60,563 nt of DNA from contig JARKUZ010000034.1 in the NCBI GenBank assembly GCA_029851945.1, positions 1-60,563 of the forward strand, in the 5' to 3' direction. The notes below the pieces were generated by a model. The model had not been told where the DNA came from, did no database searches, and was given only the letters and a program-made list of their open reading frames with translations. How positions within the stretch are numbered: position 1 is the stretch's first letter; each line of letters starts with the position of its first letter. Below are positions 3,360-46,291 of the stretch, one piece after another. Both the position numbers and the translations under genes were made by a program. This DNA is from Terrisporobacter sp. GTDB taxonomy: Bacteria; Bacillota_A; Clostridia; Peptostreptococcales; Peptostreptococcaceae.

Positions 3360-3370
3360 TGTAATCCTCC

Positions 3371-7141: not shown

Positions 7142-7159
7142 TTTATCAGTTGAGATTAT

Positions 7160-7211
7160 AAATGTAAAAGGCATAGACATGTTTATATCATGTCTATGCC
7201 TTTTACATTTT
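7160..7211. terminator. Strong bidirectional hairpin terminator
   Basis: A 21-bp perfect stem (AAATGTAAAAGGCATAGACATG and its complement) with a short TTTATAT-type loop. It sits between the convergent DUF2871 gene and the feo operon and can end both transcripts. Confidence 0.85.
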
Positions 7212-7220
7212 ATCATAAAA

Positions 7221-7376
7221 CTATTTATTACAACTTCCTTTGCATTTAGAGGCATGGGAGCACTTATAACAACCATAATCTCCACTGCCCTTTTCCTTAT
7301 TAAACTTAACTATAGGCTTAATTGCTAAAAATAATATAAAAGACACTACAATAATTACTATTAAATTTCCTATCAT
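7221..7376 (-). CDS. FeoB-associated Cys-rich membrane protein, 51 aa
   Basis: A short gene directly after feoB. The protein begins MIGNLIVIIVVSFILFLAIK, a single membrane helix, and ends in a Cys-rich tail with CYKC, CKGSC and flanking Lys (Cys at 36, 39, 45, 49). This fits the FeoB-associated Cys-rich protein family (the FeoC-like partner in Firmicutes), thought to help ferrous iron uptake or FeoB stability. The ATG at 7376 follows AAAGGAG, and the feoB stop lies about 20 bases upstream, so it is the third gene of feoA-feoB-this gene. The TAG stop lies at 7221, close to the terminator. Confidence 0.88.
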   Translation of the reverse strand: MIGNLIVIIVVSFILFLAIKPIVKFNKEKGSGDYGCYKCSHASKCKGSCNK

Positions 7377-7396
7377 AATAAATCTCCTTTAATAAA

Positions 7397-9370: not shown

Positions 9371-9384
9371 TTTTTCATCTCCCT

Positions 9385-9597
9385 TTAAATTATTTCTATA
9401 GCTTCTGCTAAATCATTATCTATTCCGTACCTTCCGCCTTTTATATTAATTATCAAGTTTGAGTACATTTTTTTTACTATACTTATACTTTCACCTTCGA
9501 AACATCCTAATGTGAATAAGAATTTATTTATTTCTTCATTTCCTTTTATTGATTTAATTTTATATATAGTGCCCTTTTGGCCTTCTGGTAATTTCAT
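9385..9597 (-). CDS. feoA: Ferrous iron transport protein A
   Basis: A 70-residue SH3-like protein that binds FeoB in the cytoplasm and supports Fe2+ uptake. The fold pattern shows KGTIYKIKSIKGNEEI, LFTLGCFEGESISIVKK and YGIDNDLAEAIEI, the last being the usual family ending. It is the first gene of the feo operon, with a purine-rich GAGGTG ribosome site. A single copy is present, while some Clostridia carry two in tandem. Confidence 0.93.
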   Translation of the reverse strand: MKLPEGQKGTIYKIKSIKGNEEINKFLFTLGCFEGESISIVKKMYSNLIINIKGGRYGIDNDLAEAIEII

Positions 9598-9628
9598 TTT
9601 AGCACCTCTTTATTTTTATTATTGATTT

Positions 9629-9669
9629 TGATAATTATTATTGCTATACTTATATGATAGTTGTTCTCA
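9629..9669 (-). promoter_or_regulatory. Two Fur-like boxes upstream of feoA
   Basis: The sequences TGATAATTATTATTG (9629-9643) and TGATAGTTGTTCTCA (9655-9669) each match 12 of 14 positions of the 7-1-7 Fur palindrome TGATAATnATTATCA, the second read as TGAGAACAACTATCA on the other strand. They are spaced 26 bases apart, 32-72 bases before the feoA start, where they would overlap the promoter. Iron-dependent repression by Fur is the expected effect. Confidence 0.65.
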
Positions 9670-9868
9670 ATTGATTTGTCAATTTAATTATTAATTTTTT
9701 TCAGATGGTAAGTTTTTTTACAAACTCTATAAATTTCCAATCCATATAAAATTACTGCTATCATAAGTAAAACTACCATCAGTAAAGTTTAAAATTTTAT
9801 CTAAATGTATATACATTGTGCTTCTCAGTTTAACTTATCCTTTCACCATTATCTTCTTCAAAACAAAT

Positions 9869-9907
9869 AAAAAAAGCACCATTTCCTACAAAGAATACCG
9901 TGCTTTA
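9869..9907 (-). terminator. Terminator after the XRE regulator gene
   Basis: On the minus strand AAAGCAC pairs with GTGCTTT around a loop of about 20 bases, followed by a T-run. The bases from here back to the Fur boxes (9670-9868) hold no gene that I can see. Confidence 0.6.
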
Positions 9908-9926
9908 TATAAATAATTTATTTTCT

Positions 9927-10376
9927 TTATTTCTTTGTTTCTTCTAATATATAACCAATTCCCATACCTATAAAACAACCAGCTGAAGCCCATATAAAAT
10001 TACCTGTAATCATTCCAATTACTATTCCAATTATAAAACCACCGAACATTAAATCAATTCCTGCCTCATCTTCTTCACTGCATTTTTTTACATTATTAGA
10101 TTTTATATTATACAATTTTGTATCACTAGATGATTCAGTGGCTTCATTTATATCTTCACTTTTAGTATTATTTTCACTAATTATTAAGTCATCTAAAGTA
10201 ACATTAAATATATCTCTTAATAAAATTAGATTATCTATGTCTGGGTATGCTTTATTAGACTCCCATTTTGATATAGCTTGCCTAGATACATTTAACTTCT
10301 CAGCAAGTTGTTCTTGTGATAAATTATTTTCTTTTCTTAACTTCTTTATCTTATCGCATAAATTCAATGTAATCAC
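9927..10376 (-). CDS. XRE-family transcriptional regulator with membrane tail, 149 aa
   Basis: The first 62 residues are an XRE helix-turn-helix: IKKLRKENNLSQEQLAEKLNVSRQAISKWESNKAYPDIDNL. A polar linker (about 65-105) leads to two short hydrophobic segments (about 110-125 and 129-143) rich in Gly and Ile, so the protein is probably tethered to the membrane. This layout is common in Firmicutes with nearby exporters or stress genes. It lies alone between the feo operon and a deletion scar, so no target is evident. The start follows GAGGTG. Confidence 0.85.
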   Translation of the reverse strand: MITLNLCDKIKKLRKENNLSQEQLAEKLNVSRQAISKWESNKAYPDIDNLILLRDIFNVTLDDLIISENNTKSEDINEATESSSDTKLYNIKSNNVKKCSEEDEAGIDLMFGGFIIGIVIGMITGNFIWASAGCFIGMGIGYILEETKK

Positions 10377-10490
10377 CTCTGTTTTATTGTATATATATAT
10401 TCATTTTATATCAGTAACTGTATGGTTGCATTGTGTAAACTTCTAGTTGCATTTCTGATTTTATCTGTATTTTTATTAATAATTTCGTTC

Positions 10491-11015
10491 TTACTTTATT
10501 TTATGATTATCTAAAAAAATCTGAATCTGGCTACTATAAGTTTTAGTATCAAAAATATCATTAAATAAATCAAACTCTATAATACTATCAATACTTATAT
10601 TATTTTCTTCTATATAGTCAAATACTTTTTTTATACTTTCCTTCTTATTCTCTGTATTATAAACTATTGTTAAGTATCTACCTTCAGGCAAGACCTTTAT
10701 ATTTTTATCATTTTTTATATCTTTATATTCTTCGACTCCATTAAATACATATCTAGCTTCTAGGCTTCTATTATTATTTACATTATATATAACGCCTCTT
10801 TGTACAGATATTTTGATGTTCTTCTCTAATATCAACTTATCTAAATCAGAATAATAAAGTAATTCCTTCAAACTCCCTGCTTCCCTGCATGGTAAAACTA
10901 CTATATAACGTGTTTCAAAAAATTTAATTGATATTTCATTTTCATTTAGTATTTCTTTAGATGATTTTATACTGTCCCTTAGTGTATCTATATTTTCGAT
11001 TACTTTGTTCATCAA
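10491..11015 (-). pseudogene. MerR-family regulator remnant: effector domain without the DNA-binding part
   Basis: The frame (174 residues, apparent TTG/ATG starts near 11013) reads as the tail of the MerR dimerisation helix (NIDTLRDSIKSSKEIL) followed by a BmrR/GyrI-like effector-binding domain: KFFETRYIVVLPCREAGSL, then VQRGVIYNV and VLPEGRYLTIVYNT. The roughly 100-residue winged-helix domain expected in front is absent. The frame stops at a point where a divergent, equally truncated GNAT gene begins. This looks like a deletion that removed both 5' ends. A stand-alone effector-domain protein cannot be excluded, since a start codon is available. Confidence 0.7.
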
Positions 11016-11346
11016 AGAAAATTGTACTTTACTTGAAGAATTTTTAAAAATTCAAACTACGTATAAAGAAATTATAAAAGGTAAAGAAGACCAGTTCCAA
11101 GGTTGTATTCAGTTATTTGTCGTATCTAAAGAATCTAGAGGTCTTGGTGTTGGGAAAACTTTAGTTAAGTATTTATCTGATTATATGAAAAGTATGAATG
11201 TAAAATCTTTATACTTATTTACAGATAGTAGATGTAACTATGGATTTTACGATAGCCAAAATTTCAATAAATTGAACGAAAAACAAGTGTCGTTTGATTG
11301 TGTCGATGCTAAATTAGATATATTTTTATATGGGTATAAGTTTTAA
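11005..11346 (+). pseudogene. GNAT acetyltransferase remnant, C-terminal half
   Basis: The frame (113 residues from a TTG) contains the GNAT acetyl-CoA loop in the stretch IQLFVVSKESRGLGVGKTLV, with RGLGVGKTL as the motif A signature, and the late motif YLFTDSRCNYGFYDSQNF. The N-terminal strands of a normal 150-200 residue GNAT are missing. No convincing ribosome site precedes the TTG, and its first bases overlap the start of the truncated MerR-type gene on the other strand. I read it as the other side of the same deletion. Confidence 0.7.
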
Positions 11347-11362
11347 TTAAATTATCATATAC

Positions 11363-11402
11363 AAAAATAGCTACTAAGTTTTATAGCTTCGTAGCTATTT
11401 TC
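11363..11402. terminator. Hairpin terminator after the GNAT remnant
   Basis: AAATAGCTACTAAG pairs with CTTCGTAGCTATTT, with A/T runs on each side. It can serve the GNAT remnant on the plus strand. The following bases 11413-11440 carry a short sequence repeated at 17373-17398. Confidence 0.7.
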
Positions 11403-11553
11403 TCCTCTTTTCGAGGATTTCAATGGTGGATACGAATCTCAAGAATCATACCCACGATTATCCATCTTTATTTATTTTAATTTAAATATCTATTTATATT
11501 ATATATTATATTATAATTTCAAATAGCCCCCTCTATGATTAATACATGTGTAC

Positions 11554-12237
11554 TTATGCTCTCATTTTATCTTCTTCTAATAACTTTCCATCTTTTATAG
11601 TTATTACTTCATCTGCCATTTTAGCTATTTCATCATTATGTGTTATCATAACCAAAGTTTGATTAAATTCTTTAACACACATTTTTAAAATCTCCATTAC
11701 CTCATCTGTAGTTTTTGAATCAAGATTACCTGTAGGCTCATCTGCAAATATTATCTTAGGTTTGTTGCCAAGTGCACGAGCTATAGCAACCCTTTGTTGT
11801 TGTCCTCCTGACAGTTCATTTGGAAATTTGTTTATTTGTTTTTCTAATCCCAATTTATTTATTAAGCCATCAATGTACTTTTTATCTATTTTTCCACCAC
11901 TAAGCGAAATTGGAAGTACTATATTATCATAAACATTTATAACAGGTATTAAATTAAAACTTTGAAATATAAATCCAAACTCTTCTCTTCTTATCTTAGA
12001 TAACTTGTCATCATTTAAAGTATATAAATCTAAATCACCCATCATTACATTTCCAGAAGTAGGTTTATCAAGACCTGCTAGACAATGAAGTAATGTACTT
12101 TTACCACTACCACTTGCCCCTACTATTGCTGTAAATTTATGAGGCTGTATTTCTAAAGTTACTTCATCAATAGCTCTGACCTCATTATCATCTTTTCCAT
12201 ATATTTTATTTAAACTTAATGCTTTTAATTTTTTCAT
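11554..12237 (-). CDS. ABC transporter ATP-binding protein, 227 aa
   Basis: Complete LolD/MacB-type nucleotide-binding subunit. Walker [10 protein letters not shown] lies near residue 41, the Q-loop in [10 protein letters not shown] near 92, the signature [15 protein letters not shown] near 142, Walker B IIFADEP and the D-loop NLDSKT near 165, and the switch His in MITHND near 198. It lies 85 bases downstream of the permease at 12322-14898 on the same strand and would power it. The protein closely matches the truncated ATPase at the window start. Confidence 0.95.
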
Positions 12238-12321
12238 AATAGTCTCCTTATGTATAATTTATCTGTTAAGATATGTTCATATTAAGCTTATCTCAACGAT
12301 TTATATTATATTTTCAAATTG

Positions 12322-14898
12322 TTAATCATTTTGTGAAATTCCATCAGTTATTGATGTGCCTTCTATCTTGTCTTTAGATAAATATACGGCAACAAGCCCC
12401 ATAATTATAAAAATTGCAAATAATATAAGTATCTGATTCCAAGGAATACTATGTGGTATAGTCCTTTCAAATCCTCCTGCTATAAGTGTTTTATTAGCGC
12501 TTGCAATCCCCCAGTTATGATAAACTGTTGCAATTATAGCTCCTATTGTGGAGGCAACTATCCCATAAAACTCACTTTCAATTATTAGAATTTTTTTCAT
12601 ATCTTTAATACTCATTCCAAGGGCTCTTAATGTCGACATCTCTTTTCTCCTTGCAATGATATTACTTCTCATAATAAAAATACTATTCACAGAAAGTATA
12701 AGTAAAATTAAGCACTGATATATTACTGTAAGTCTGTCCTCTGAACTTTGTTGTGCTCCGTAAAATTTCATGTCTTCACCTTTACCACCTATTGATGAAA
12801 ATGCATAATCCTTTGTTAGTTTCTCTAATCTTTTTTCAACTGGGTATAACTCACCTTTTTGAGTCATTACATAAATCTTGTTATAATCCTTTTGATTTGT
12901 TAATTCTTTATAGTCATCCTCTCTAAATATTACCTGTGCTCCACCAGCATCAACATTCCCATCTTGAGCTGCTGCATAGACTTCTTTCATAATAGCACCA
13001 ACTTCAACCTTAATTGTTTCGTATTTTTTGATACCATCTTTATATACAGGTATTTTTATATCTATAATATCCCCCACCTTCACATCATCAATTACCTCTG
13101 CTTCAAATGAGTGGGTAACTAGTGATTGGGTATTATTTACTAGTATAACTTTTTTATACTTTCCTTCTTTATTATTTATTAAGTTTTTTCCTTCTTCAAT
13201 AAACGACTCTCTACTCTTTAACATCTCATCGCTATAACCTCTTATAATAAGCGGATATTCATTATTATACTCATCTTGAAATAATAAGACTCTTCTATTT
13301 AATTCATCTTGATAAGCTTTAGATATTTTATCTTTAGGAACAAAAATATATCCATTAGGATTATAAAAGTTTGGTTCTACACTTTTCACTCCTTTTATAT
13401 TTTTTATCTCTTCTATCATATTCTTATCAATTTTATAAAATAAACTTTCGGTACCGTAGGAGCTTCCACTTACTGTTTTATCTACACTTCCATAGGACAT
13501 ACCGAAGGAACCACCTGTTATTCCTTCCTCTATATTGGTATTTAATGTATCTTTCACTGCAAAACTAAATATAAACATTGTTCCAACCATGGTAATTGCA
13601 AGCATTGTTATGATAGTTCTAGATTTGTTTCTCCATACATTTCTCCTTGCAATACTTATAATCATACTTCCCTTTGTTATATTTGTTTTGATTCTCTTAG
13701 ATTTTGATTTTCTTTTATACTTCTCACTATTTTTTATTGAATCAATTATAGACATCTTCATAGCTTTTCTGACCACTATAAAACTACTTATAGATACAGA
13801 TAATGTTGAAACTATAAAAGAATAGATTATACTTGAAGCTCCTATTGTTAGCATAGAGCTATATCCATATACTAATCGAACTCCAATATATGATAATGTC
13901 GTTCCAAGTAACATCCCAATTAAAGTTCCTAAAACTATATATATAAGACTAAGATCTGTAAACATTATCTTAATTTTCTTCTTTGACATCCCAATTGCTC
14001 TCATAAGACCTACTTGTATTATCATATCTTGTAGTATAATATTGAAAATATTGTATATTACAATGCTAGATACAATTACTAAAAGAAGTATCTTTTTAAT
14101 ATTTTCTATATTATTAGTAGACATATACTTTAATTGTTTAGCTGTTGTAACTTCTGAATTTTCATGTAAATAGTCCCAACTAAGACCTAGCTCTTTTTCC
14201 ATTTTACTTACAAACTTAGATGTATTTTTTTCAGATTTAAGAAATATAGTTCCTTTATATGTATCTTTTGCTTTTATGGGAAGCTTAGCTTCTTCATATA
14301 TAAAAGCTTGAGTTCTAATACCTCCTATTGCACTGGATTTAGAACTATAATACTTATCCGATTTTTCAAGTACACCAACAATTTTAAATTTTTTATTAGC
14401 ACTATCAATTTGATTAGCCCCATTGTCGTCAACGTACTTATTCATCAACATTAAATCAATATTCTTATTTAATGGATCATTTATTCCCATTTGCTTTGCT
14501 GCTTCTTTTTCTATGACTATTTCTCCATCTTTTCTTGGTTCTCTTCCCTTCATCTTATAATTAAGAGAATTTATAAAACCTTCATCAAATGAATTTAAAT
14601 CAAGTTTAACACCATTTTCTTTATTAACTCCTTCAAGAAAATATTTAACCTTGCTACTTTTTTTTACTTCACTATCATTTTCTAGTTGTTTGACTTTATC
14701 TATATCAATCCCTTCAAACCATACTTGATAATTTCCATGCAAATCTTTTGCTTCTTGTATTTGAGAATCATATCCCGAATCCCTAATTACATTCATAGAG
14801 AAAATAAGCATCACTGAAAGTGCAATACTTGATAATAGTGCCACTGTTTTTCCTCTTTGTCTTTTCATATACGATATTGCTAGTTTAAGTGTAATCAA
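12322..14898 (-). CDS. FtsX/MacB-type ABC transporter permease, 858 aa
   Basis: Paralogue of the permease at 312-2876, with the same two-unit layout: an N-terminal TM segment, a large outside domain and three TM segments, then the same pattern again, with MIQVGLMRAIGMSKKKI and KEMSTLRALGMSIKDM as coupling loops. I choose a TTG start at 14898 because GGGAGG lies 6 bases before it. An ATG at 14934 sits in the T-run of a terminator and lacks a good site. The ATPase lies directly downstream and a kinase/regulator pair directly upstream. Unlike the first cassette, there is no lipoprotein or DUF3139-like gene. Confidence 0.9.
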   Translation of the reverse strand: MITLKLAISYMKRQRGKTVALLSSIALSVMLIFSMNVIRDSGYDSQIQEAKDLHGNYQVWFEGIDIDKVKQLENDSEVKKSSKVKYFLEGVNKENGVKLDLNSFDEGFINSLNYKMKGREPRKDGEIVIEKEAAKQMGINDPLNKNIDLMLMNKYVDDNGANQIDSANKKFKIVGVLEKSDKYYSSKSSAIGGIRTQAFIYEEAKLPIKAKDTYKGTIFLKSEKNTSKFVSKMEKELGLSWDYLHENSEVTTAKQLKYMSTNNIENIKKILLLVIVSSIVIYNIFNIILQDMIIQVGLMRAIGMSKKKIKIMFTDLSLIYIVLGTLIGMLLGTTLSYIGVRLVYGYSSMLTIGASSIIYSFIVSTLSVSISSFIVVRKAMKMSIIDSIKNSEKYKRKSKSKRIKTNITKGSMIISIARRNVWRNKSRTIITMLAITMVGTMFIFSFAVKDTLNTNIEEGITGGSFGMSYGSVDKTVSGSSYGTESLFYKIDKNMIEEIKNIKGVKSVEPNFYNPNGYIFVPKDKISKAYQDELNRRVLLFQDEYNNEYPLIIRGYSDEMLKSRESFIEEGKNLINNKEGKYKKVILVNNTQSLVTHSFEAEVIDDVKVGDIIDIKIPVYKDGIKKYETIKVEVGAIMKEVYAAAQDGNVDAGGAQVIFREDDYKELTNQKDYNKIYVMTQKGELYPVEKRLEKLTKDYAFSSIGGKGEDMKFYGAQQSSEDRLTVIYQCLILLILSVNSIFIMRSNIIARRKEMSTLRALGMSIKDMKKILIIESEFYGIVASTIGAIIATVYHNWGIASANKTLIAGGFERTIPHSIPWNQILILFAIFIIMGLVAVYLSKDKIEGTSITDGISQND

Positions 14899-14936
14899 AA
14901 TTTTACCTCCCTTTCTTGTACCAAATCCTCGCATAA

Positions 14937-14970
14937 AAAAATGCTACCTTCTTTGTATCAAAGGTAACAT
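14937..14970 (-). terminator. Terminator/attenuator between the second kinase gene and the permease
   Basis: On the minus strand ATGTTACCTT pairs with AAGGTAGCAT around a loop of about 10 bases and is followed by seven T. It lies between the kinase stop (15081) and the permease TTG start, so it ends or dampens read-through from the two-component genes. Confidence 0.8.
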
Positions 14971-15080
14971 TTCTAAAATTTTGATTCAATATAAGTCGTA
15001 CAAGTGGTATTTTTTTACCGACAACTAGCATACTAAGTCTTAATTTATAGTCTTATTGGATTAATAATCATATTAAATTT

Positions 15081-16418
15081 TTATTCAACTGGTATATGAA
15101 TAGTAGCTATAAATTTATTCTCACTATCCTTAATTTTTAATTCTCCGTCGTATTTTTTTATTGAAGATTTTATACTCTCAATTCCTATTCCATGAAGAAA
15201 TTTATCTTTTTTAGAAGTAAAAATCTTATTATTGTTAATTATTACTTTATTTGTTTTACTATTTTCACATCTAACTACATAATACCCTTTTATAAAAGTA
15301 CTTTTTATAGTTATATATTTTTCAATATTATTATCATCAATTTTGTTACATGCTTCTATTGCATTATCTATTAAATTTGAAAATATACTACTTATATCAA
15401 TCATCTCTATAAATTTACATTTACTAAAATCTATACCTACATTAAAATCTATATTATTTTCCATGCAATCTTTACTTTTTTCATATAAGATAATATCTAA
15501 AAGTACATTTCCTGTATTATAAATATTTTTAGTTCCTTTTACTTCATCTTCTATATTGTTAATATATTTATTTACTTCTTCACTACTATTTTTTAGAGCT
15601 TTTATATTTTCCATATGGTTGTTCATATCATGGTATACTTGTCTCATTTTTTCTTGTGAATCCTTAACCATTAAGTAGTATTTGTACTGCATATCTAATT
15701 TTTCGTTTACAAACTCTGCTTTAGCTTTTTCTTTTTCTGACTTTATAGAATTTAAAAATATAGATATTAACAATATATTTACTATAAGTAAAAGATAAGG
15801 AAATACATATCCCATAAAATCAGATATCTTAAGGGTATCTACGATATTATTATATTCAATATTATTTTTTATTATTAAGTTATATAAATCGCCTATTTTT
15901 GAAGTTGATATATTTAAAAATAATATTATAAGTATATTAACTATTACTGTTAAACTTATATATAAATAGTATTTCTTTTTATTATAAAGTTCTTGTAGCT
16001 TATCAAAAAAATAAACTCCGAAAAAAATAATTACAAAATTTATTCCTAGATTTAATACATGTATACATTCAATTACATAATTAAGCATTATAGATAAAAA
16101 CCAATAAATACTACATTCTATCAAAATATACACTAAACTATACATTACCGAATTAATAATAGATTTTCTTATATCAATTTGATAAATAGTTTTGCTAATC
16201 AAAAATAATACTAATACTATCCTAATTAAAGGTTGTAATACTACAATTCCAAAAGGTATACCCATTACAATTGAAACTACAGTTAATAGTAAAACTAATA
16301 TTACTTTCATATCAAATTTACATTTATAAACATAACCTATTTTATTCATTAACATTAAAAAGCAAGATATAAATATAAGCATATTAGTAGCACATAAAAA
16401 TCTATAAAAAACTAACAT
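15081..16418 (-). CDS. GHKL (AgrC-type) sensor histidine kinase, 445 aa
   Basis: Paralogue of the kinase at 4240-5622. About seven membrane segments fill the first 215 residues. The phospho-acceptor region reads MRQVYHDMNNHMENIKALK, followed by the N-box SNLIDNAIEACNK and GIGIESIKSSIKKYDGEL near the C-terminus. It overlaps the end of its LytTR regulator by 7 bases. The exporter genes follow on the same strand after a terminator, and control of that exporter is the likely role. The signal is unknown; no AgrD-like gene was seen. Confidence 0.92.
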   Translation of the reverse strand: MLVFYRFLCATNMLIFISCFLMLMNKIGYVYKCKFDMKVILVLLLTVVSIVMGIPFGIVVLQPLIRIVLVLFLISKTIYQIDIRKSIINSVMYSLVYILIECSIYWFLSIMLNYVIECIHVLNLGINFVIIFFGVYFFDKLQELYNKKKYYLYISLTVIVNILIILFLNISTSKIGDLYNLIIKNNIEYNNIVDTLKISDFMGYVFPYLLLIVNILLISIFLNSIKSEKEKAKAEFVNEKLDMQYKYYLMVKDSQEKMRQVYHDMNNHMENIKALKNSSEEVNKYINNIEDEVKGTKNIYNTGNVLLDIILYEKSKDCMENNIDFNVGIDFSKCKFIEMIDISSIFSNLIDNAIEACNKIDDNNIEKYITIKSTFIKGYYVVRCENSKTNKVIINNNKIFTSKKDKFLHGIGIESIKSSIKKYDGELKIKDSENKFIATIHIPVE

Positions 16419-17122
16419 AATTTCTCCTCTATCAAGTCAAAAAATTTATCTTTTGTCTCCTTAAATCGATACCTACTAATAGGTACTTCTTCCCCATTTT
16501 CAAGTATTGCAACATACTGTTTTATACTTTTTACATGCTCTAAATTAACTAAAAAGCTCTTGTGGCATCTAAAAAATCTACTACAATCTATCTCCTTTTC
16601 AATATTAATCATTGTACCATTTGTTTTATAGACTTCATTTAAAGTATGTATAGTTATAGTTTCTTTTTGCACTTCTACATATGTTATTTCGTTTATATTT
16701 AATTTAATCTGATTACCTTGTTCTTTTACCATAATATATTTATTTTTTATATCTACTTCTTTTATACAGTTTATTATATTTTCTTTTAAATTCTCATATT
16801 TTACTGGTTTTATTAAATATCTATAAGCCCTTACCTCATAACCTTCTAGTGCGTATTCTATTAATGATGTAATAAATATAATTTCTACTTTGTCATCTAA
16901 CACTCTAATTGTTCTTGCAGTGTCCATTCCATTAATTTGACCCATTTGTATATCTAATAAAAGTACATCCGTGTCTTTTGAATAGTTTTCAAGCAATTCT
17001 TCTCCTGAACTAAATATATCCACCTTATATTTAACAGCTAATCTCTCAAATATTTGATCTATATATATTTTTAGCAACTCTTGCTGTTCTTTTTCATCTT
17101 CACATATTGCAATTTTTATCAC
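16412..17122 (-). CDS. LytTR-family response regulator, 236 aa
   Basis: Receiver domain with EDE at 8-10, the phospho-acceptor D57 in VLLLDIQM and the Lys in RYLIKP, followed by a LytTR DNA-binding domain (FFRCHKSFLVNLEHV, VPISRYRFKETKDKF). I choose the GTG start at 17122, preceded by GAGGTGG at a spacing of 7 bases. The upstream ATG at 17143 overlaps that site. The first residues IKIAICEDEKE match the paralogue at 5616-6323, which supports this start. It is coupled to the kinase by overlap. Confidence 0.92.
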   Translation of the reverse strand: MIKIAICEDEKEQQELLKIYIDQIFERLAVKYKVDIFSSGEELLENYSKDTDVLLLDIQMGQINGMDTARTIRVLDDKVEIIFITSLIEYALEGYEVRAYRYLIKPVKYENLKENIINCIKEVDIKNKYIMVKEQGNQIKLNINEITYVEVQKETITIHTLNEVYKTNGTMINIEKEIDCSRFFRCHKSFLVNLEHVKSIKQYVAILENGEEVPISRYRFKETKDKFFDLIEEKLC

Positions 17123-17334
17123 GTAATTCCACCTCATGTCCACTTATATTACTTCATTTATTAATTTTATATGATATATGTTTCTTTATTTTATATTTAT
17201 TTAATTGTTTCATAGTGATAACTTTTCATTATTTATAATTATAGACTAACTTTTTATTTCTTCGAATATTTTTATATAGACTTAATAATAAAAAATTTGA
17301 TTTATATAAATCTCTTATAATCAATTTCAATATA
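17123..17334. other. AT-rich intergenic stretch before the second two-component pair
   Basis: Very AT-rich, with no open frame or clear RNA that I can support. It probably holds the promoter of the regulator/kinase operon, but I cannot pick a single convincing -35/-10 pair. Confidence 0.4.
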
Positions 17335-17370
17335 AAAAACCATATTGACTATTATATCAGTATGGTTTTT
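17335..17370. terminator. Hairpin terminator
   Basis: AAAAACCATA pairs with TATGGTTTTT, and the inner bases TTGA/TCAG extend the stem. There are A/T runs on both sides. It lies between the alpha/beta hydrolase and the second two-component operon and would end hydrolase read-through. Confidence 0.75.
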
Positions 17371-17507
17371 GTGGATTTCAATGTTGAAGACGAATCGTAA
17401 CGAACACCCTCTACCATTATTTTATTATATCATATCTAATAAATTCCACATTGTCAGAAAACTCCACCATTATTAAAATAATTTATAATTACTAAACCAT
17501 CTACCTC

Positions 17508-17537
17508 AAAGGGTGTGACATTTTTGGGACACCCTTT
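17508..17537. repeat. Dispersed short repeat, family A, copy 2
   Basis: AAAGGGTGTGACA, a T-rich centre, then GGGACACCCTTT; identical to the copy at 6473-6501 over the whole core. It lies about 45 bases past the stop of the alpha/beta hydrolase and lacks a T-run, so it is not a standard terminator. Confidence 0.85.
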
Positions 17538-17582
17538 ATCCAACTCACCCACCTAAAACAAAAGCCGATCAGTCCCAAAACT

Positions 17583-18395
17583 TTATTCTTCAATAAACTT
17601 CACCAATTCTTCATTAAATCTATCTCGCTGATCATAGAAGGATGCATGACCGCTGAATTCAAATGGTACAAGCTTAGAATTTCTAATACTTTGATTTTGT
17701 ACTTTAGCTAGTGGAAATGGAACAACTTTGTCGTGAATTCCGTGAATAATTAAGGTTGGAACATTTATTTCTCCTAAATCACAAAATAGTACTTCATTTA
17801 TCCAAGTCTTTGCAATCGCTGCAGTTGACCAACCTGCCGCCTGTAGACCTAATTGTAAGAACCAATCAGAGAATGGCTCAGTTATATGCTGAAAGAAAAA
17901 AGTATCACCGAAGTCACTTAGCATTTTAGGACGATCATTGTATGTTCCCTCGATAATTTTAATTACATCCTCTTCTTCTAAACCATATGGGAAATTTTGA
18001 CTTTTGATAAGACTAGGAGCAGCTGCAGCAAAAAGAGCAAGTTTAGATACTCCATATCCCTTATGGCGAGACATGTATCGAATAGCTATAGCTCCACCAG
18101 TTGAATGTCCTGCGAGTATGAAATCATGTAATTTTAACCCATTAACTACACATCTAACATCGTCTGACAATCTATCATAATCGTAACCTTCATAAGGCTT
18201 ATCTGACTTACCAAATCCTCTCTGGTCTATACCAATACATCTGTAGCCTAACTTTGGAAGCTGATTAAACTGATATTCAAACAGATTGTGATTCCCAGGC
18301 CATCCATGTAAAAATACTATTGTCTTCTTACCATCTGGGTTAAGATCCTCTACGTAAACTTTTACATTTTGTTCTACTTTAACATAATAACCCAT
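17583..18395 (-). CDS. Alpha/beta hydrolase (esterase/non-haem peroxidase-like), 270 aa
   Basis: Soluble alpha/beta hydrolase with a complete triad: nucleophile S98 in AGHSTGG, acid D222 in IIHGIHDKVVP and base H250 in FSGHASF. The oxyanion HGWPG motif lies at 30-34, and the DQRGFGKSD strand near 57-65 is typical of the arylesterase/chloroperoxidase branch. There is no signal peptide. A lid covers about residues 125-200. The ATG follows GGAGGT. It lies alone between decayed AraC sequence and the second exporter cassette, so its substrate cannot be guessed from context. Confidence 0.88.
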   Translation of the reverse strand: MGYYVKVEQNVKVYVEDLNPDGKKTIVFLHGWPGNHNLFEYQFNQLPKLGYRCIGIDQRGFGKSDKPYEGYDYDRLSDDVRCVVNGLKLHDFILAGHSTGGAIAIRYMSRHKGYGVSKLALFAAAAPSLIKSQNFPYGLEEEDVIKIIEGTYNDRPKMLSDFGDTFFFQHITEPFSDWFLQLGLQAAGWSTAAIAKTWINEVLFCDLGEINVPTLIIHGIHDKVVPFPLAKVQNQSIRNSKLVPFEFSGHASFYDQRDRFNEELVKFIEE

Positions 18396-18551
18396 ATAAG
18401 TACCTCCATTAATAAAAATCCTTTATTAGTAAATTATTCTTCTGGAGATAAATATATTCCTGACTGCAAAGATAGCTATTTCGACTTTAAAATTAATGTT
18501 AACGAAGATAATTATGAAACAGATTTAGATAAAATTAATTAGATCGGATTA

Positions 18552-18822
18552 AGTTGCACACTCGCAGCCTAAATACTTTTGTAGAAAATTTAAACAGTAT
18601 ATGGGACAAGCCTATTTATAATATTTAAATTATGTGCGTATATCTTATATTTACAAAGATTCGATTAATACAGATAATACCTTATGTAGCATTTTAGAAA
18701 CTCATGTGTTTACTAATTATAAATTATTTTATAAAGTTTTTAAGAAAAAATTCAACTGTACCCCTAATGAGATAAAAACACTTATATCTATAGTTATTCA
18801 TAAAAGATTTTTTAGTAGGTAA
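18552..18822 (+). pseudogene. Decayed AraC-type DNA-binding domain fragments
   Basis: Two short plus-strand pieces in different frames look like the second half of AraC helix-turn-helix domains: one reads HSQPKYFCRKFKQYMGQAYL before a stop (about 18558-18622), the other (18634-18822) contains NYKLFYKVFKKKFNCTPNEIK. Both match the usual pattern FS..YFS+.FK...G.TP.E. Stops and frame changes break the region. A short acidic open piece at 18427-18541 just before it may be from the same or another dead gene. No intact regulator can be built. Confidence 0.45.
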
Positions 18823-18924
18823 AGCATAATAATTAAATTGTAAATAGAAATGGTGAACTATTAATAAGTCCACCACTTCATTTTTGTAATTTATGCTACT
18901 ACTTTTAGATAAGCTCTAGCTATA

Positions 18925-19065
18925 TTATTCATCATTTGAGCTTTTGCTATCATGAATACTTTTTTGATCATGACTATTTTTACTATCACTTACTTTTTTA
19001 CTATCTTTAACTGGAACACTCTTATGAGAATGTTTGCTATCACTTACTTTTTTGGATTCATTCAT
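18925..19065 (-). CDS. Small Lys/Ser/Asp/His-rich peptide, 46 aa
   Basis: A short open frame starting MNESKKVSDSKHSHKSV and ending with TAA at 18925. The protein is an internal repeat: KKVSDSKHSHKS, then KKVSDSKNSHDQKS, then IHDSKSSNDE. It has no hydrophobic segment and should be disordered. AAAGGGG lies about 10 bases before the ATG. It lies 26 bases downstream of the Asp/Ala-repeat gene on the same strand, so the two may be co-transcribed. The unlike charge of the two proteins (basic/His here, very acidic there) makes a partnership conceivable. I do not recognise a family. Confidence 0.6.
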   Translation of the reverse strand: MNESKKVSDSKHSHKSVPVKDSKKVSDSKNSHDQKSIHDSKSSNDE

Positions 19066-19090
19066 AATAACTATACCCCTTTATAATACA

Positions 19091-20017
19091 TTACTGTTCT
19101 ATACTGTCGTCCTCTGGTTGTATAGATATATTACATCCCTCAGGTTGTACATCTGTAACAACTACAGAATCGTCACACCATCTATGCTTTTTCTCACAGC
19201 ATCCACAAGTAACGTATACATTTATAGGTGTACTAATGCTTATTGGACCCACATTATTGCTTGCAGTTGATTGATTATTATTATTTGCATTTGATTCAGA
19301 AGTAGAATTAACGTCAGCGTCTATATCTGAGTCTACGTCTGCATCTGATGTTGCATCTGATGTTGTATTTGCATCTATATCTGAGTCTACATCCGCATCT
19401 GATGTTGTATCTGAGTCTACATCTGATGTTGCATCTGCATCTATATCTGAATCTACATCTGCGTCTGATGTTGTATCTGCATCTATATCTGAGTCTACAT
19501 CTGCATCTGATGTTGTATCTGCATCTATATCTGAGTCTACATCTGCATCTGATGTTGTGTCTGAGTCTACATCTGATGTTGCATCGGCATCTATATCTGA
19601 ATCTACATCTGCATCTGATGTTGTATCTGCATCTATATTTGAGTCTACATCCGCATCTGATGTTGTATCTGAGTCTACATCTGATGTTGCGTCTGCATCG
19701 GCATCGGCTTTTGCATCTGCGTCTGCATCAGCATCGGCTTTTGCATCTGCGTCTGCATCAGCATCAGCTTTTGCATCTGCGTCTGCATCGGCATTGGCTG
19801 TTGCATCTGCATCGGCATCGGCTGTTGCATCTGCATTGGCATCTACATTTATACATATATCTCTATCTTCATAGTCATTATATATATCTTCACAGTCATT
19901 ATCTATATCATCGTAATGATGACAGTGTTTTTTATTAGGTCTTTCTTCTTTAAATCTACTTCCTCTTAGTTTTGATGATCTTGTTCTATATCTATTTTCA
20001 ATTCTTTCTTTATGCAT
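19091..20017 (-). CDS. Asp/Ala/Ser/Thr-repeat protein with Cys-rich C-terminus, 308 aa
   Basis: Low-complexity protein in three parts. Residues 1-55 are basic and then acidic ([20 protein letters not shown], then a His/Cys/Asp stretch). Residues 56-240 are a long repeat: first ADADA units punctuated by Lys ([10 protein letters not shown] three times), then 18-20 residue units built from [13 protein letters not shown] and TSDVDSDT. The last 65 residues form a distinct domain with [24 protein letters not shown] and [19 protein letters not shown]. There is no signal peptide, membrane segment or sorting signal. The alternate D-x-D spacing could bind Ca2+, and Cys-rich ends are common in spore-coat and exosporium proteins; both are guesses. 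The start follows AAGGAGA. Confidence 0.8.
19300..19830. repeat. Tandem repeats inside the Asp/Ala-repeat gene
   Basis: On the plus strand the region is built from hexamers such as GCATCT, GCATCG and GAGTCT, arranged as an 18-24 base unit (TGCATCTGATGTTGTATC type) in about a dozen copies (about 19320-19690), followed by three copies of a 27-30 base unit with GCATCGGCTTTTGCATCTGC (19690-19790). Near-identical units mean the copy number can change by recombination or slippage. Confidence 0.85.
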
Positions 20018-30949: not shown

Positions 30950-31190
30950 AAAAAAGCCTCTTGGAATAAAATCCAAGAGGCGAATCATCTCCGCGTTACC
31001 ACTCTTATTGGTAAAAAACTTACCCACTCAATCTCTTAAGGCGAGAACACCTACTGCCATACTTAATTTCCTGCAGTCTTCTCCAAAGCTCTTTTCACAT
31101 AATCCTCAATGCCTAGCTTCCACCATCCTAAGCTCTCTGTAAAATTAAATCATGCTACTCTCTTTTTCATAGAATTTCCATATCGTTTTT
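30950..31190 (-). promoter_or_regulatory. T-box riboswitch with first terminator, upstream of the YfcC-type carrier
   Basis: The leader shows stem I parts (AGAGAGCTTAGGATGGTGG with the distal loop and GTGAAAAGAGCTTTGGAG on the 3' side), the T-box AAGAGTGGTAACGCGG (30991-31006) and a terminator GCCTCTTGGA...TCCAAGAGGC with T6 (30950-30982). By position in GTGAAA-AGA-GC the specifier may be AGA (Arg; 31090-31092), though AGC (Ser) in another register is not excluded. Uncharged tRNA would open the terminator and raise carrier expression. Confidence 0.88.
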
Positions 31191-36882: not shown

Positions 36883-37036
36883 ATAAAAGCCTGAGTATAA
36901 ACTCAGGCCTTTTAGACTATAATTTATACTTATCTTTCAGCATAATTGCTGCAGGATTTAGCACCATAGTATATAAAAATATACCGGTTGCCGGGTTTCA
37001 AAGGGCCTTTCCCTCCACCACTCTTGATAAGAAGTA
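36883..37036 (-). promoter_or_regulatory. SAM-I riboswitch (S-box) with terminator, upstream of the frameshifted remnant
   Basis: The aptamer (36927-37036) shows P1 CTTATC/GATAAG, CAAGAGTGGTGGAGGGA, the core GGCCCTTTGAAACCCGGCAA and GGTGCTAAATCCTGCAG. The terminator CCTGAGTTTATACTCAGG with flanking A/T runs follows (36885-36914). High SAM would close transcription. It matches the second copy at 39141-39288 closely. Confidence 0.93.
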
Positions 37037-39140: not shown

Positions 39141-39288
39141 AAAAACCTGAGTATAAACTCAGGCTTTAATTAACGAATTTATACTTATCTTTCAGTAATA
39201 AATACTGCAGGATTTAGCACCATATATAAAAATTATACTGGTTGCCGGGTTTCATAGGGCCAGTCCCTCCACCTCTCTGGATAAGAAA
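39141..39288 (-). promoter_or_regulatory. SAM-I riboswitch with terminator, upstream of metQ
   Basis: Aptamer (39182-39288) with P1 CTTATC/GATAAG, AGAGAGGTGGAGGGA, the core GGCCCTATGAAACCCGGCAA and GGTGCTAAATCCTGCAG. The terminator CCTGAGTTTATACTCAGG with T7 lies at 39141-39168, about 100 bases before the metQ start. When SAM is plentiful, transcription should stop before metQ. Confidence 0.95.
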
Positions 39289-42960: not shown

Positions 42961-44547
42961 CTAAAGTTCCACTATTTTAGTAGCTATCTTTTCTCCAAAA
43001 GAAGTATCGTGCTCTACAAATAGCATTGTAGGTTTTTCACTAAAAATAAGATTTTCTACTTGCATACGTGAGATCACATCTATAAAATTAAGTGGTTCAT
43101 CCCATATATAAAGATCTGCATCTTCACATAAACTCTTAGCAATAAGCAACTTTTTCTTTTGACCTTCACTCCACTGACTTATATCTTTTTCAAATTGTAT
43201 ATTTTCAAATCCTAGTCTTATTAAATTACTTTTTACATGTAGATTATTTACGTTTTCATTTTTTATAAAGTCATCTAAATTTCCTTTTAGGTGAGAAGTT
43301 TCTTGGGAAATATAAGATATCTTCTTTGTTTTTTTGATATACCCTGTATGATTAATATACTCACCTATGATTAATTTTATTATGCTGGACTTCCCACTAC
43401 CATTTTTACCACGTAGCCATACTCGCTCCCCTTTTTTAATATCAAAACTTATATCATCAAATATATTTTTATCTTTATAGTTAATCTGTAAGTTATGAAC
43501 TTCTAGTATACTATCTTTTTCTTGTTCTAAAATAGATAAGTCTGTTGTTTCTTTACTTGATAATTTTAGCTTTTCTGCAACATCTAAGTTTTTTAGCAAT
43601 TTAGATTTTTCTTCAATAGCTTTATTCTGTCTAGCTTCTATACTTTTAGCTCTCTTCATCATCTTAGCCGCTTTATGACCTATAAATCCTCTATCAACTG
43701 GACCATTTCCTTTTTTACTAGCTTCTATTTTATGGGACCATGTTGACTTTTGCTTTGCTGTTTTTTGTAGTCTTTGAATATCTTTTTGTAACTTTTCATT
43801 TTTAGACCTTTCAAATTCATCTTCTCTATCTTTATTAAATTGCCATGTGGAGAAATTACCCTTTTGAATCTCTATATTAGCTTTATTAATAGATAGTATA
43901 TGGTCAACTATAGAATCTAAAAAGGCTCTGTCATGAGATACTACTATAAATCCTTTTTTACTGGCTAAATATTTAGCTACAATTTCTCTTCCTTCCACAT
44001 CTAAGTGATTTGTGGGTTCATCAATAAGTAAAAAATGATTCTTTCTCAAAAATAAACCTGCTAAAAGTAATTTTGTCTGTTCACCAGAGCTTAATATATC
44101 AAAAGTTTTAGTAAGTATATTAGTATCTAATCCTATTTTATTGACTTCTTTTTCGATTAACTCATTGATTATATATCCATTATTATCTATATACTTTTCT
44201 AAAATTTCTCCATACTCTTCCATCTTATCTGGCAACTGACTATACTCTTCCATCTCTTTTTCCCAAGTTGTAAAGGGAGCGATAGTGTTTCTAACCACTT
44301 CCAAGGCTGTCCCAAAAATGTCACACCCTTTGATAGGGAAATATTCAAACTTTACGGTACTTATAATTTGACCACTATATTCATATTCTCCCATAAGAAG
44401 TTTTAAAAAAGTCGTCTTCCCTCTTCCATTTCGACCAATCAGACCTAACTTCCAGTCTGTATCTATGCAAAATGATACATTTTTGAAAATATCTTCACCA
44501 TGTGTATCATATTGAAAACTTAAATTATTTATATTTATTTGCGACAT
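42961..44547 (-). CDS. ABC-F ATPase, probable ribosome protection (antibiotic resistance) protein, 528 aa
   Basis: Two ABC domains in one soluble protein with no membrane part. Domain 1 has Walker A GRNGRGKTT, the signature LSSGEQTKLLLAGL and LLIDEPTNHLD; domain 2 has GKNGSGKSS, WSEGQKKKLLIAKSL and YIWDEPLNFIDV. A long helical inter-domain linker (about residues 230-330, rich in Lys/Gln/Arg) would reach toward the peptidyl-transferase centre. The LNFID variant in domain 2 is typical of the Lsa/Vga-like resistance branch. I choose the ATG at 44547 behind GAGAGGAG. A leader with uORF, antiterminator and terminator precedes it. Codons for KGCDIFGTA are supplied by a family A repeat (44303-44331). 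Confidence 0.92.
   Translation of the reverse strand: MSQININNLSFQYDTHGEDIFKNVSFCIDTDWKLGLIGRNGRGKTTFLKLLMGEYEYSGQIISTVKFEYFPIKGCDIFGTALEVVRNTIAPFTTWEKEMEEYSQLPDKMEEYGEILEKYIDNNGYIINELIEKEVNKIGLDTNILTKTFDILSSGEQTKLLLAGLFLRKNHFLLIDEPTNHLDVEGREIVAKYLASKKGFIVVSHDRAFLDSIVDHILSINKANIEIQKGNFSTWQFNKDREDEFERSKNEKLQKDIQRLQKTAKQKSTWSHKIEASKKGNGPVDRGFIGHKAAKMMKRAKSIEARQNKAIEEKSKLLKNLDVAEKLKLSSKETTDLSILEQEKDSILEVHNLQINYKDKNIFDDISFDIKKGERVWLRGKNGSGKSSIIKLIIGEYINHTGYIKKTKKISYISQETSHLKGNLDDFIKNENVNNLHVKSNLIRLGFENIQFEKDISQWSEGQKKKLLIAKSLCEDADLYIWDEPLNFIDVISRMQVENLIFSEKPTMLFVEHDTSFGEKIATKIVEL
44303..44331. repeat. Dispersed short repeat, family A, copy 5, inside the ABC-F coding sequence
   Basis: Read on the coding strand it is AAAGGGTGTGACA, the T-rich centre and GGGACAGCCTT, matching the intergenic copies at all but one or two bases. 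In frame it encodes KGCDIFGTA after EYFPI, in a loop region of the first ABC domain. Confidence 0.8.
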
Positions 44548-44644
44548 AATTCCATCTCCTCTCAAAAGGAAATTTTCTTTAGTCATGTAACAAATGATGT
44601 GTCTTTGTTATCACTTCATGTGTATCCGATTCTAAAATTGACAT

Positions 44645-44971
44645 AAAAAACTTCCTTAGATTTAAGTAATTTTAACTACTTTAAATTAAGGAAGATATAG
44701 TTCTACTAAATATATACTACATATGATTATATTAACGATTTGCAAAACATAATTATATGTGTATTTTATGCACAGAAATAAAGCTATTTTTAGCTTATAT
44801 TCAGGTATGTGATTTACTAGTACAATCTTATTCTTAATTTAAAGTAGTTTAAGGCTCAATTAATAAAGTATTTATAAAACACTCATTATATGCTATTAAA
44901 CTAATTTGTTTGAATAAGATTATTTTCTCACTTTACCTGATCACCTCCGTTACGTTATTATGTCCATTATA
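44645..44971 (-). promoter_or_regulatory. Attenuator leader of the ABC-F gene
   Basis: Promoter TTGACT (44989-44994) and TATAAT (44966-44971), spacing 17. A full-length Shine-Dalgarno GGAGGTGATC (44939-44948) precedes a mini-ORF GTG AGA AAA TAA (44920-44931). Segment AATCTTATTC (44912-44921) can pair with GAATAAGATT (44824-44833). Just upstream, AACTACTTTAAATTAAG (44833-44849) can pair over 17 bases with the 5' arm of the terminator (44674-44690). The terminator hairpin CTTCCTTA...TAAGGAAG with T6 lies at 44645-44694, about 100 bases before the ABC-F start. This is a complete termination/antitermination switch. Confidence 0.85.
44920..44931 (-). CDS. Three-codon leader ORF (M-R-K) of the ABC-F attenuator
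   Basis: GTG AGA AAA TAA follows GGAGGTGATC, which is fully complementary to the 3' end of 16S rRNA. The stop codon lies next to the segment that pairs with the antiterminator. A ribosome held here by an antibiotic would mask that segment. The peptide itself is too short to have another role. Confidence 0.5.
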   Translation of the reverse strand: MRK

Positions 44972-45037
44972 TATGATTGCTTTTGACTAGTCAATTATTC
45001 TTATTTCTATAATAAATATAGAGAGCTTTTTGTTTTT

Positions 45038-46291
45038 CTAAAATGAAATCAATTCATTAAAACACTTTATAGCATAGGGATCTGTCATACCAGAAATAAA
45101 ATCTATAATCGCTTCTTTATAAATTTCTTCTGTTTTCAACACTCCATATATTTTTTTATTATTAAGACTACTTTTTAAATCTTTAGTATTTATAATACTT
45201 TCATCACAATATTTTATTATCCAACCTTTAAAATCACTTATCAAAAATCTGTATCTTTTATCTATATTATTTTGTAAATTTTTAATAGTATTTTCTCCAT
45301 CGTAGTATAAACTTAATTCTTCAAAAATACTATTTATTACTAAGTAAGCATATTTTTTATAATAATTAAATTGTTTATTATCATATATCTTTTCATAATT
45401 GAATTTTTTTATTGAATTAATAAAGTTTTGTTTTTCCTTTGAAAAGCAAATTCCATTTTCAACATTGCTATTTTCAATTAAATCACTTACAAGCTCATTT
45501 ATTATGACAGAAGTATTTATTGTTTTTTGTCCATGTTGATGACCTAATTTATATATATCTTGTAAATCATCGCGACTAATTATTTTAAGCAATAATGCAT
45601 CTTCTATATCTCTTCCTAGATATGCTATTTTATCTGATATTTTAACAACACACCCCTCCCAAGTATAAGGCTGCACCTCCCCTGGATTTTGTATAGTATT
45701 TAAATCTATATTTTCATTTCTAGGGGAAATTCCATTCTCATCAACTTCTCCACAATGACATATTATCCCATCTCTAACTGCGTATGTAAGATTTAAATTA
45801 GTTAAACTTCCTTTATCATCAGATAATAAATCTAATTTATCTACCGCTCTTAGTCCATTTTTTTCATGCCAAAAAGATTTTCCTAGATTATCTTTTACTA
45901 TTTTTCTTATAACATATTCACCTTCATGACCAAAAGGTGCATGACCTAAATCATGTCCAATAGCTATAGATTTAGTAAGCTCACAATTTAATCCTAAGGA
46001 TTTAGCTATCATATAACTAACAGATTCTACATGGGCCACATGCTCCATTCTTGTGCAGATATGGTCGTTTTGAGTATTGAAAAAAACCTGTGTCTTATGC
46101 TTTAATCTTCTATATGCTAAACTATGCAAAATTCTAGTATAATCTCGCTCAAACTCTGTTCTTACCTCATTATTTCTGGAATATAAATCTTCTTCTCTGT
46201 GAATAGATTTTTTTAATTTATCATTTTCATAATTCAACATATCTTCAGTCATAGCCACATGTGAAAATTTTTTTACCCTAACCTTTTCCAT
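45038..46291 (-). CDS. dgt: dGTPase-like HD-domain triphosphohydrolase, 417 aa
   Basis: HD-superfamily enzyme that splits dNTPs (typically dGTP) into nucleoside and triphosphate. The metal site shows HTRMEHVAHV-like residues (ICTRMEHVAHVESVSYMIAK) and the HD pair in IAIGHDLGHAPFGHEGEYV, then AYLGRDIEDALLL with the last metal Asp. The opening RTEFERDYTRILHSLAYRRL with KTQVFF is typical of the family. I choose the ATG at 46291 behind GGGAGG; an upstream in-frame GTG/TTG region at 46306 lacks a site. It is a lone gene, divergent from the permease pair. Confidence 0.92.
   Translation of the reverse strand: MEKVRVKKFSHVAMTEDMLNYENDKLKKSIHREEDLYSRNNEVRTEFERDYTRILHSLAYRRLKHKTQVFFNTQNDHICTRMEHVAHVESVSYMIAKSLGLNCELTKSIAIGHDLGHAPFGHEGEYVIRKIVKDNLGKSFWHEKNGLRAVDKLDLLSDDKGSLTNLNLTYAVRDGIICHCGEVDENGISPRNENIDLNTIQNPGEVQPYTWEGCVVKISDKIAYLGRDIEDALLLKIISRDDLQDIYKLGHQHGQKTINTSVIINELVSDLIENSNVENGICFSKEKQNFINSIKKFNYEKIYDNKQFNYYKKYAYLVINSIFEELSLYYDGENTIKNLQNNIDKRYRFLISDFKGWIIKYCDESIINTKDLKSSLNNKKIYGVLKTEEIYKEAIIDFISGMTDPYAIKCFNELISF

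Follow-up and report, generated by a model that had tools for sequence, protein, structure and literature searches.

The window studied here is the whole stretch of 60,563 nucleotides of contig JARKUZ010000034.1 from Terrisporobacter sp. On its minus strand, a leader occupies positions 44994–44547, between a dGTPase-like gene and an ABC-F gene. The dGTPase-like gene (45038–46291) scored 164 bits against TIGR01353, the cut-off of which is 152.35. The ABC-F gene (42961–44547, minus strand) encodes an Lsa-related protein of 528 aa, which exceeded the curated cut-off of NF000355 (453 versus 380 bits) and is therefore ribosomal protection-like. Against the Lsa model NF000167 it reached 619 bits, below the curated cut-off of 750, so it is Lsa-related and not a named Lsa protein. 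The closest named protein matches were from Peptostreptococcaceae (Romboutsia weinsteinii, 77%). Also on the minus strand of the window, a T-box leader and two SAM riboswitches were located at 30973–31179, 39182–39287 and 36927–37033, and a putative 308-codon ORF with many Asp-Ala-Asp-type repeats at 19091–20017.

The leader starts with a sigma-70-type promoter (44966–44994, minus strand, as are all features below), in which TTGACT (44994–44989) and TATAAT (44971–44966) are 17 bases apart; transcription probably starts near 44959. An extended Shine-Dalgarno (SD) sequence, GGAGGTGATC (44939–44948), has its first base 17 nt ahead of the start codon of a three-codon upstream ORF (uORF), read directly as GTG-AGA-AAA-TAA (M-R-K, 44920–44931). 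Segment 1, AATCTTATTC (44912–44921), overlaps the uORF stop codon and is the 5' arm of an anti-antiterminator. It forms 10 bp with GAATAAGATT at 44833–44824, and 12 in the minimum-energy fold. Segment 2 (44824–44852) contains both 3' arms of the anti-antiterminator, 44852–44845, which pairs with 44903–44896 as an inner helix, and 44833–44824, which pairs with segment 1. It also contains the 5' arm of the antiterminator (44849–44833), where AACTACTTTAAATTAAG pairs with CTTAATTTAAAGTAGTT at 44690–44674 over 17 bp, as checked letter by letter. The intrinsic terminator (44645–44694) has its arms at 44694–44651 and T6 at 44650–44645, with −14.3 kcal/mol for 44700–44640. The promoter, SD, mini-ORF, segments, terminator and T6 all lie on the minus strand where the first-pass annotation had put them; the inner helix and an apical hairpin of the anti-antiterminator were absent from it.

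Three further elements go beyond that annotation. TCACATACCTG (44802–44812) can pair with the SD and start region of the uORF and close a 5' hairpin (the outer helix), as supported by the arm-swap test described below. A hairpin, AAGCTAAAAATAGCTT, followed by TTATTT (44781–44776), together at 44776–44796, is likely an RNA polymerase pause hairpin with the NusG motif TTNTTT. Finally, TTTCCTTTTGAGAGGAG (44556–44572) is predicted to fold into a hairpin (SL4) over the SD of the ABC-F gene, and its 5' half can alternatively pair with the terminator 3' arm, which gives the leader a second layer. The ABC-F start codon is 97 nt from the terminator end.

An ORF of 21 codons (44579–44644) begins directly 3' of T6, with an SD-like AAGGAAG inside the terminator arm. 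It was considered as a second regulatory uORF and dismissed: by eye its peptide showed no conservation, ATG-TAA takes its place in some relatives, and an ATG directly behind the T-run is missing from 7 of 20 leaders. It is probably a relic start and not a conserved gene. GTG-ATC-AGG-TAA inside the SD was likewise dismissed as an alternative uORF: it is not preceded by a separate SD, and Paraclostridium leaders, on reading, have no stop codon there.

The ABC-F protein was found at E up to 1e-120 in 22 of 71 genomes of one family group, which we take to be the Peptostreptococcaceae, and on two Paraclostridium bifermentans plasmids. The leader set was drawn from the 22 sequences, window counted, whose protein was 61% or more identical to that of the window. 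Enough upstream DNA was present in 20 of them; L104 and L111 end too soon and were left outside. When uORFs of 1 to 10 codons with any stop were scanned for, all 20 leaders (12 lineages, window included) had a three-codon uORF at the same spot. Its start codon was always 17 or 18 nt past the first SD-box base. The uORF was GTG-AGA-AAA in six leaders, ATG-AAC-AAT in ten, ATG-AAC-AGA in three and ATG-AAG-TGT in one. Codons 2 and 3 thus vary (VRK, MNN, MNR and MKC, respectively), with start position and length fixed. Codon 4 was TAA in 38 of 38 compared leaders, most of which were picked with patterns requiring TAA. All 10 pairs of the segment 1 helix, G-U counted, were kept in 20/20 leaders, with a two-sided change (C to T and G to A) in L117–L119, and a terminator was found in every leader. 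The best −35/−10 pair ahead of each leader matched 9 to 12 of 12 bases, as the best of a scan in AT-rich DNA with no control. As in attenuators of the vmlR/cplR type, the uORF has three codons, its own SD and a stop codon in or beside the anti-antiterminator arm.

Six relatives (L106–L111) have ATA at the conserved position of the ABC-F start codon. Five of them have an in-frame ATG touching the SD, and in L109 the interval from the upstream stop to the ATA lacks ATG, GTG and TTG alike. Judged from the sequence, a non-standard start codon may add a further layer of control there. Two decayed copies were also seen: in L147 (G457:C88) the leader is followed immediately by the tail end of an ABC-F gene, and L124 (G445:C2) has an in-frame TAA within the match.

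The layout was also searched for with a pattern rule. It required an SD-like box far upstream and a three-codon uORF of the [AG]TGA type that ends in TAA-T[CT]; of the 10 bases that follow, nine or more had to pair, G-U included, with a stretch 30–210 nt further on. The rule matched 68 places in 183 sequences (1.02 Mb; many chosen for such leaders and some present twice), against 2 places in a control of five copies that had been shuffled by blocks of 200 nt. Within the 60-kb window, this leader was the sole match. Chance resemblance is ruled out by the uORF placement in 20/20 leaders, by the arm-swap covariation and its rerun, and by the pattern rule compared with shuffles. An earlier contig scan with generic ABC motifs (alignment A1) kept 80 loci, nine of them with at least 40% identity; L001–L009 were included in the uORF table. 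The scan was set aside, its patterns being generic, and L050, with a vmlR-type leader, was the one locus used further.

Covariation was assessed with an arm-swap test, in which duplex energies of arms from the same leader were compared with those obtained when arms were exchanged among 12 of the 20 leaders, a subset without near-duplicates, with 20000 permutations. The antiterminator weakened from −15.7 to −12.8 kcal/mol on swapping, the pairing of the terminator 3' arm with the ABC-F anti-SD from −7.5 to −6.0 kcal/mol, and the outer helix over the uORF SD from −11.3 to −9.6 kcal/mol. Permutations as good numbered 11, 58 and 36 of 20000, respectively, and 20, 62 and 32 of 20000 in a rerun. Fifteen control pairings gave 3243 to 19756 of 20000, and therefore kinship alone is not the source of the signal. 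The check for covariation in relatives suggested by the first-pass annotation thus succeeded for three helices, but the terminator arms (1632/20000) and the 10-bp segment 1 helix (1481/20000), which is nearly invariant, had no significant signal. RNAalifold on alignment A2 recovered the 10-bp helix and no other. The arm-swap test is used as the main support because the shuffle control for the antiterminator was lax: 140 of 400 shuffles passed at 8 pairs, and 29 of 400 with shuffled terminator arms at 14 pairs. Masked real leaders had at least 14.5 expected antiterminator pairs.

In free folds without a ribosome, the terminator was kept in 20/20 leaders. When the complete terminator was included and the fold taken at equilibrium, the antiterminator won in 2/20 leaders when the uORF region alone was masked, in 5/20 with a mask from the SD to +16, and in 8/20 with one from the SD to +22. 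With so low a success at equilibrium, the switch needs co-transcriptional timing. When the transcript ended behind the terminator 5' arm, with the 3' arm not yet made, the antiterminator formed in 20/20 leaders under a ribosome-sized mask versus 4/20 unmasked. The window is among those four, which favour the antiterminator without a ribosome before the terminator 3' arm is made, and its anti-antiterminator must therefore hold kinetically, by forming first. The first-pass annotation had suggested masking 44912–44931. This mask did not flip the minimum-energy fold of the window leader, but masks of 44912–44945 or 44910–44950 did, so the mask must reach into the SD, as a bound ribosome would. Folding, and the covariation of the antiterminator, agree on a mutually exclusive anti-antiterminator, antiterminator and terminator, with the equilibrium switch complete in only 8 of the 20 leaders.

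The leader is a real RNA switch ahead of a ribosome-protection gene in a gut-type relative of Clostridium. Very probably it is an attenuator of the vmlR/cplR type that senses a drug and acts on both transcription and translation. In the drug-free state, a ribosome would load on the extended SD, read three codons and leave at TAA. Segment 1 would then pair with the tail of segment 2 to form the anti-antiterminator, the outer helix would cover the uORF SD, and the terminator would form and stop transcription at T6. A pleuromutilin, lincosamide or streptogramin A would arrest the ribosome on the start codon or beside it, where its front edge (about +16) would cover part of segment 1. Segment 2 would be left to pair with the terminator 5' arm, and the polymerase would read on. 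The freed terminator 3' arm could pair with the anti-SD and open the ABC-F SD. The core of this scheme, a ribosome on the uORF that masks segment 1 and frees segment 2 for the terminator arm, was already the reading of the first-pass annotation. The covariation in relatives and the folding agree with it, and the same mechanism has experimental backing in vmlR (PMC9226507) and, in essentials, in cplR (PMC10201436). The elements, their conservation, the covariation of three helices and the predicted switching come directly from the sequences. From these we infer that the uORF is translated, that the polymerase pauses, and that the leader would respond to drugs of the classes named. A response to drugs that block initiation or the first peptide bond fits, by analogy, toeprints at another three-codon uORF, where drugs of the start-codon type, but not erythromycin, gave signals at the start codon (PMC12421871, available text). 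The GTG start and the long SD spacing count against this explanation.

Conceivably, a genuine terminator and antiterminator answer to a different ligand, be it a metabolite, an uncharged tRNA or a protein, and the GTG mini-ORF is untranslated. The GTG start in 6/20 leaders and the large, structured fold would suit such a trigger, as would the fact that translation of the uORF is deduced here. However, Rfam had no match at gathering score in the leader, though it found the T-box, the two SAM riboswitches and a tRNA elsewhere in the window. Moreover, a length fixed at three codons in 20/20 leaders with changing codons 2 and 3 fits translation and not ligand binding, and related leaders precede Vat and Vgb-like genes. 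We give this alternative very little credence.

It could also be that the M-R-K peptide or its codons, and not the start codon, set which drug stalls the ribosome, so that the sensor would respond to, for example, a macrolide or amino-acid shortage. In vmlR, the uORF variants MDN, MDK and MRK have been assayed, and MRK induced less well than MIN, MDN or MDK (PMC9226507), so codons 2 and 3 matter somewhat. On the other hand, these codons differ among relatives of the same gene (VRK, MNN, MKC, MNR) and between gene families. A peptide of three codons is too short to extend far into the ribosome exit tunnel. The published toeprints of start-codon drugs, and not of erythromycin, at a three-codon uORF (PMC12421871, available text) also argue against dependence on the peptide, which we regard as improbable.

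For the start-codon-sensing attenuator, the second layer would act on translation of the ABC-F gene. The predicted fold covers the ABC-F SD with a hairpin whose anti-SD half can pair with the terminator 3' arm instead, so antiterminator formation would also free this SD. This relay pairing was one of the three that covaried (58 and 62 of 20000), and its duplex was weak in L109, L113 and L121 (−2.4, −3.6 and −0.7 kcal/mol, respectively). When SL-4, the SD-covering hairpin of vmlR, was broken, induction fell moderately and leaky expression did not increase (PMC9226507), so the relay may be less important than this scheme makes it. TTNTTT directly behind a hairpin of the pause type, between switch and terminator, was found in 14/20 leaders. 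The motif in the window is TTATTT, as reported together with the pause hairpin of vmlR in the available text of PMC9226507, and pausing is predicted for the window leader.

The distance between SD and uORF start was 17–18 nt in 28 of 28 measured leaders (20 Lsa-like and eight vat leaders). In L104–L176 (some loci overlap), an RGAGG box was present at 57 long ORFs, and at one of these it lay 17 nt or more ahead of the start; in the window, with a liberal choice of start, 2 of 17 long ORFs had the RGAGG box at least 17 nt ahead. In 17 of 18 cplR-type leaders an AAAGG box was located 21–22 nt ahead of the start, and L176 gave none; L175 and L176 score below the CplR cut-off. In Staphylococcus aureus, extended SD pairing has a longer optimal spacing (PMC13009471, available text), which may, by analogy, explain the far SD. 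The spacer between SD and start is also part of the outer helix.

A leader of this kind is already known from vmlR and cplR, and the M-R-K uORF itself is already in print. Given the published three-codon uORFs and the MRK test in vmlR, the window leader adds a case to a known kind. The first-pass annotation had called the three-codon uORF unusually short; this does not hold, since those of VmlR (MIN), CplR (MR[I/M]) and VmlR2 (MK[L/Q]) are equally long (PMC10201436, available text). As described in the available text of Takada et al. 2022 (PMC9226507), vmlR of Bacillus subtilis likewise has a three-codon uORF within the anti-antiterminator, an SD (AGAAGGG) far upstream, a pause hairpin with TTATTT, a terminator, and an SD-covering hairpin with a proposed relay. 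There, the SD and start were shown by a 30S toeprint at +16, SD and start mutants lost induction, and SL-1 and SL-3 mutants agreed with the model. The leader of L050 from Bacillus tequilensis shares TAATCTTATT at the stop codon; by our own reading, from species and uORF, this gene is vmlR, and NCBIfam assigns it to ABC-F only (508.6 bits). In contrast to the window gene, vmlR belongs to another ABC-F subfamily and has the uORF MIN (MRK in other Bacilli), and the overall likeness of the leader sequences is weak.

The cplR leaders of Clostridioides difficile and its kin resemble the window leader in their three-codon uORF MR[I/M], in combining transcription and translation attenuation and in belonging to the same bacterial family (Obana et al. 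2023, PMC10201436, available text). In that system, retapamulin and lincomycin raised cplR mRNA, and a uORF start mutant was inactive. The two differ in that the cplR terminator extends up to the cplR start and masks the cplR SD directly, whereas the window terminator ends 97 nt ahead of the ABC-F start and the SD there is masked by a hairpin of its own. In sequence, the window leader showed no significant likeness to cplR leaders (82 and 171 of 500 shuffles as good). CplR matched in 18 of the 71 genomes at E up to 1e-150, with 16 over the curated cut-off, and the cplR-type leaders of Peptostreptococcaceae (L159–L176) included uORFs beyond MR[I/M], namely MKR, MNI, MNN and MKL.

The are5sc leader of Streptomyces also has a three-codon uORF, MLV (PMC12421871, available text); its host is an actinobacterium, and the comparison covers the uORF as described. 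Lsa(A) and Lsa(E) are related ABC-F proteins (49% identity for Lsa(E)) behind leader uORFs. Unlike the GTG-AGA-AAA of the window, the LsaA uORF is reported as MAGN (PMC10201436, available text), so the window leader is not of the Lsa(A) type. The plasmid leader L103 of Lsa(E) differs too, with the uORF MYNFSC and an SD box 12 nt ahead of the start. On a Priestia megaterium plasmid (L101), an Lsa-family ABC-F gene (810.6 bits, over the cut-off) stands behind a vmlR-like uORF, ATG-ATT-AAC-TAA-TCT (MIN).

Sequence-related leaders were also found ahead of Vat or Vgb-like genes at 10 places (L146, L148, L149, L152–L156, L158 and L179). They precede Vat in L146, L148 and L149, from three family genomes, and Vat or a Vgb-like gene with Vat in L152–L156. 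Vat exceeded the NCBIfam cut-off of 300 at 8/8 places, with 312 to 346 bits (L155 via the same place in L150). The single Vgb-like protein scored had 361 bits against the VgbA cut-off of 600. By eye only, the vgb-like part appeared broken, shortened or nearly gone in L152–L155. In L158 the gene is Vgb-like by eye and the leader had E = 0.008. L179 is a Paenibacillus cellulositrophicus plasmid with an annotated vat and the three-codon uORF MIY. The eight vat leaders had an SD distance of 17–18 and the uORF MNN, MSN, MIK or MII, and their best antiterminator duplex was −16 to −24 kcal/mol, as the best of a sliding search without control.

A covariance model was built from 14 leaders, all among the 20 (13 from the window and genomes and one from a P. 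bifermentans plasmid). With a limit of E = 0.01, it matched 19 of the 71 family genomes; in the wider set of 393 genomes of the order, 24 matched at the stricter limit of 0.001. In a class-wide draw, model R1 matched 2 of 391 genomes (G215 and G253). Spread by phages or widely by plasmids was considered and rejected, as a plasmid search with the leader yielded, beyond the two P. bifermentans records, three weak hits (E of 0.2 or higher). The exact pattern GAGGTGAWTNNNTAAARTGANNNNNTAAT had 0 matches in viral contigs. A Macrococcoides match had no annotated resistance gene in the 4 kb inspected. Four of the 64 plasmid records with a Vat match (L177, L179, L181 and L182) were checked. No such uORF was found, by eye or pattern rule, ahead of vat(E) on L177, the Priestia vgb (L181) or the Enterococcus faecalis vgb(A) (L182). 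A transposase gene is located about 110 nt upstream of vat(E) on L177.

The likeness between Lsa-like and vat leaders could reflect convergence on one layout with no shared module. The vmlR and cplR leaders have the layout in common with these leaders but little sequence likeness to them. From 7 to 171 of 500 shuffles were as good for cplR leaders and 20 to 214 of 500 for vmlR, and the covariance model reached at best E = 0.015 and E = 0.023, respectively. With the uORF core omitted, the likeness of the window leader to L148 was weak (41/500) and to L179 none (204/500), and it still resembled the vat leaders L146 (0/500) and L155 (1/500). In contrast, three Lsa-like leaders compared with three clostridial vat leaders gave 0/500 shuffles as good in 9/9 comparisons. 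The covariance model also detected seven of the eight vat places with E of 5e-5 to 4e-4 per genome, and L149 with 0.008. Convergence is unlikely in our judgement. As the likeness of Lsa-like and vat leaders goes beyond that of shuffles, their sharing looks like one portable module. For cplR and vmlR, the common layout is evident, and likeness to the window and the other Lsa-like leaders appears weak at the sequence level. ATG stands directly behind the T-run in 13/20 Lsa-like leaders, window included, which would fit an exchange of modules. In L146, L148 and L149 the vat start codon likewise lies close behind the T-run, as in cplR.

We lean, by a modest margin of belief, towards a start-codon-sensing module that has been passed among unrelated genes, namely those for Lsa-like ABC-F proteins, Vat and a Vgb-like lyase with Vat, perhaps also cplR and vmlR. 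What unites its regulon would then be a ribosome frozen at initiation, whatever the mechanism of resistance. The three codons and the far SD would be kept as the footprint, not the peptide, is the signal, and the ATG behind the T-run would be the old start of the donor gene. No description of vat or vgb attenuators was found in the literature searched, which covered few subscription papers, and as far as that search goes a portable sensor ahead of Vat and Vgb-like genes looks new.

With these leaders, the genes under three-codon drug sensors come to include another ABC-F clade, which occurs in Peptostreptococcaceae and is carried by Paraclostridium plasmids. Related sensors also precede genes for resistance against this kind of drug, namely those for a streptogramin A acetyltransferase and streptogramin B lyase-like proteins. 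Since codons 2 and 3 vary at a fixed length across some dozens of natural leaders, it can be tested directly whether codons are read or the position of a frozen initiating ribosome is sensed, and also why the SD is so far away.
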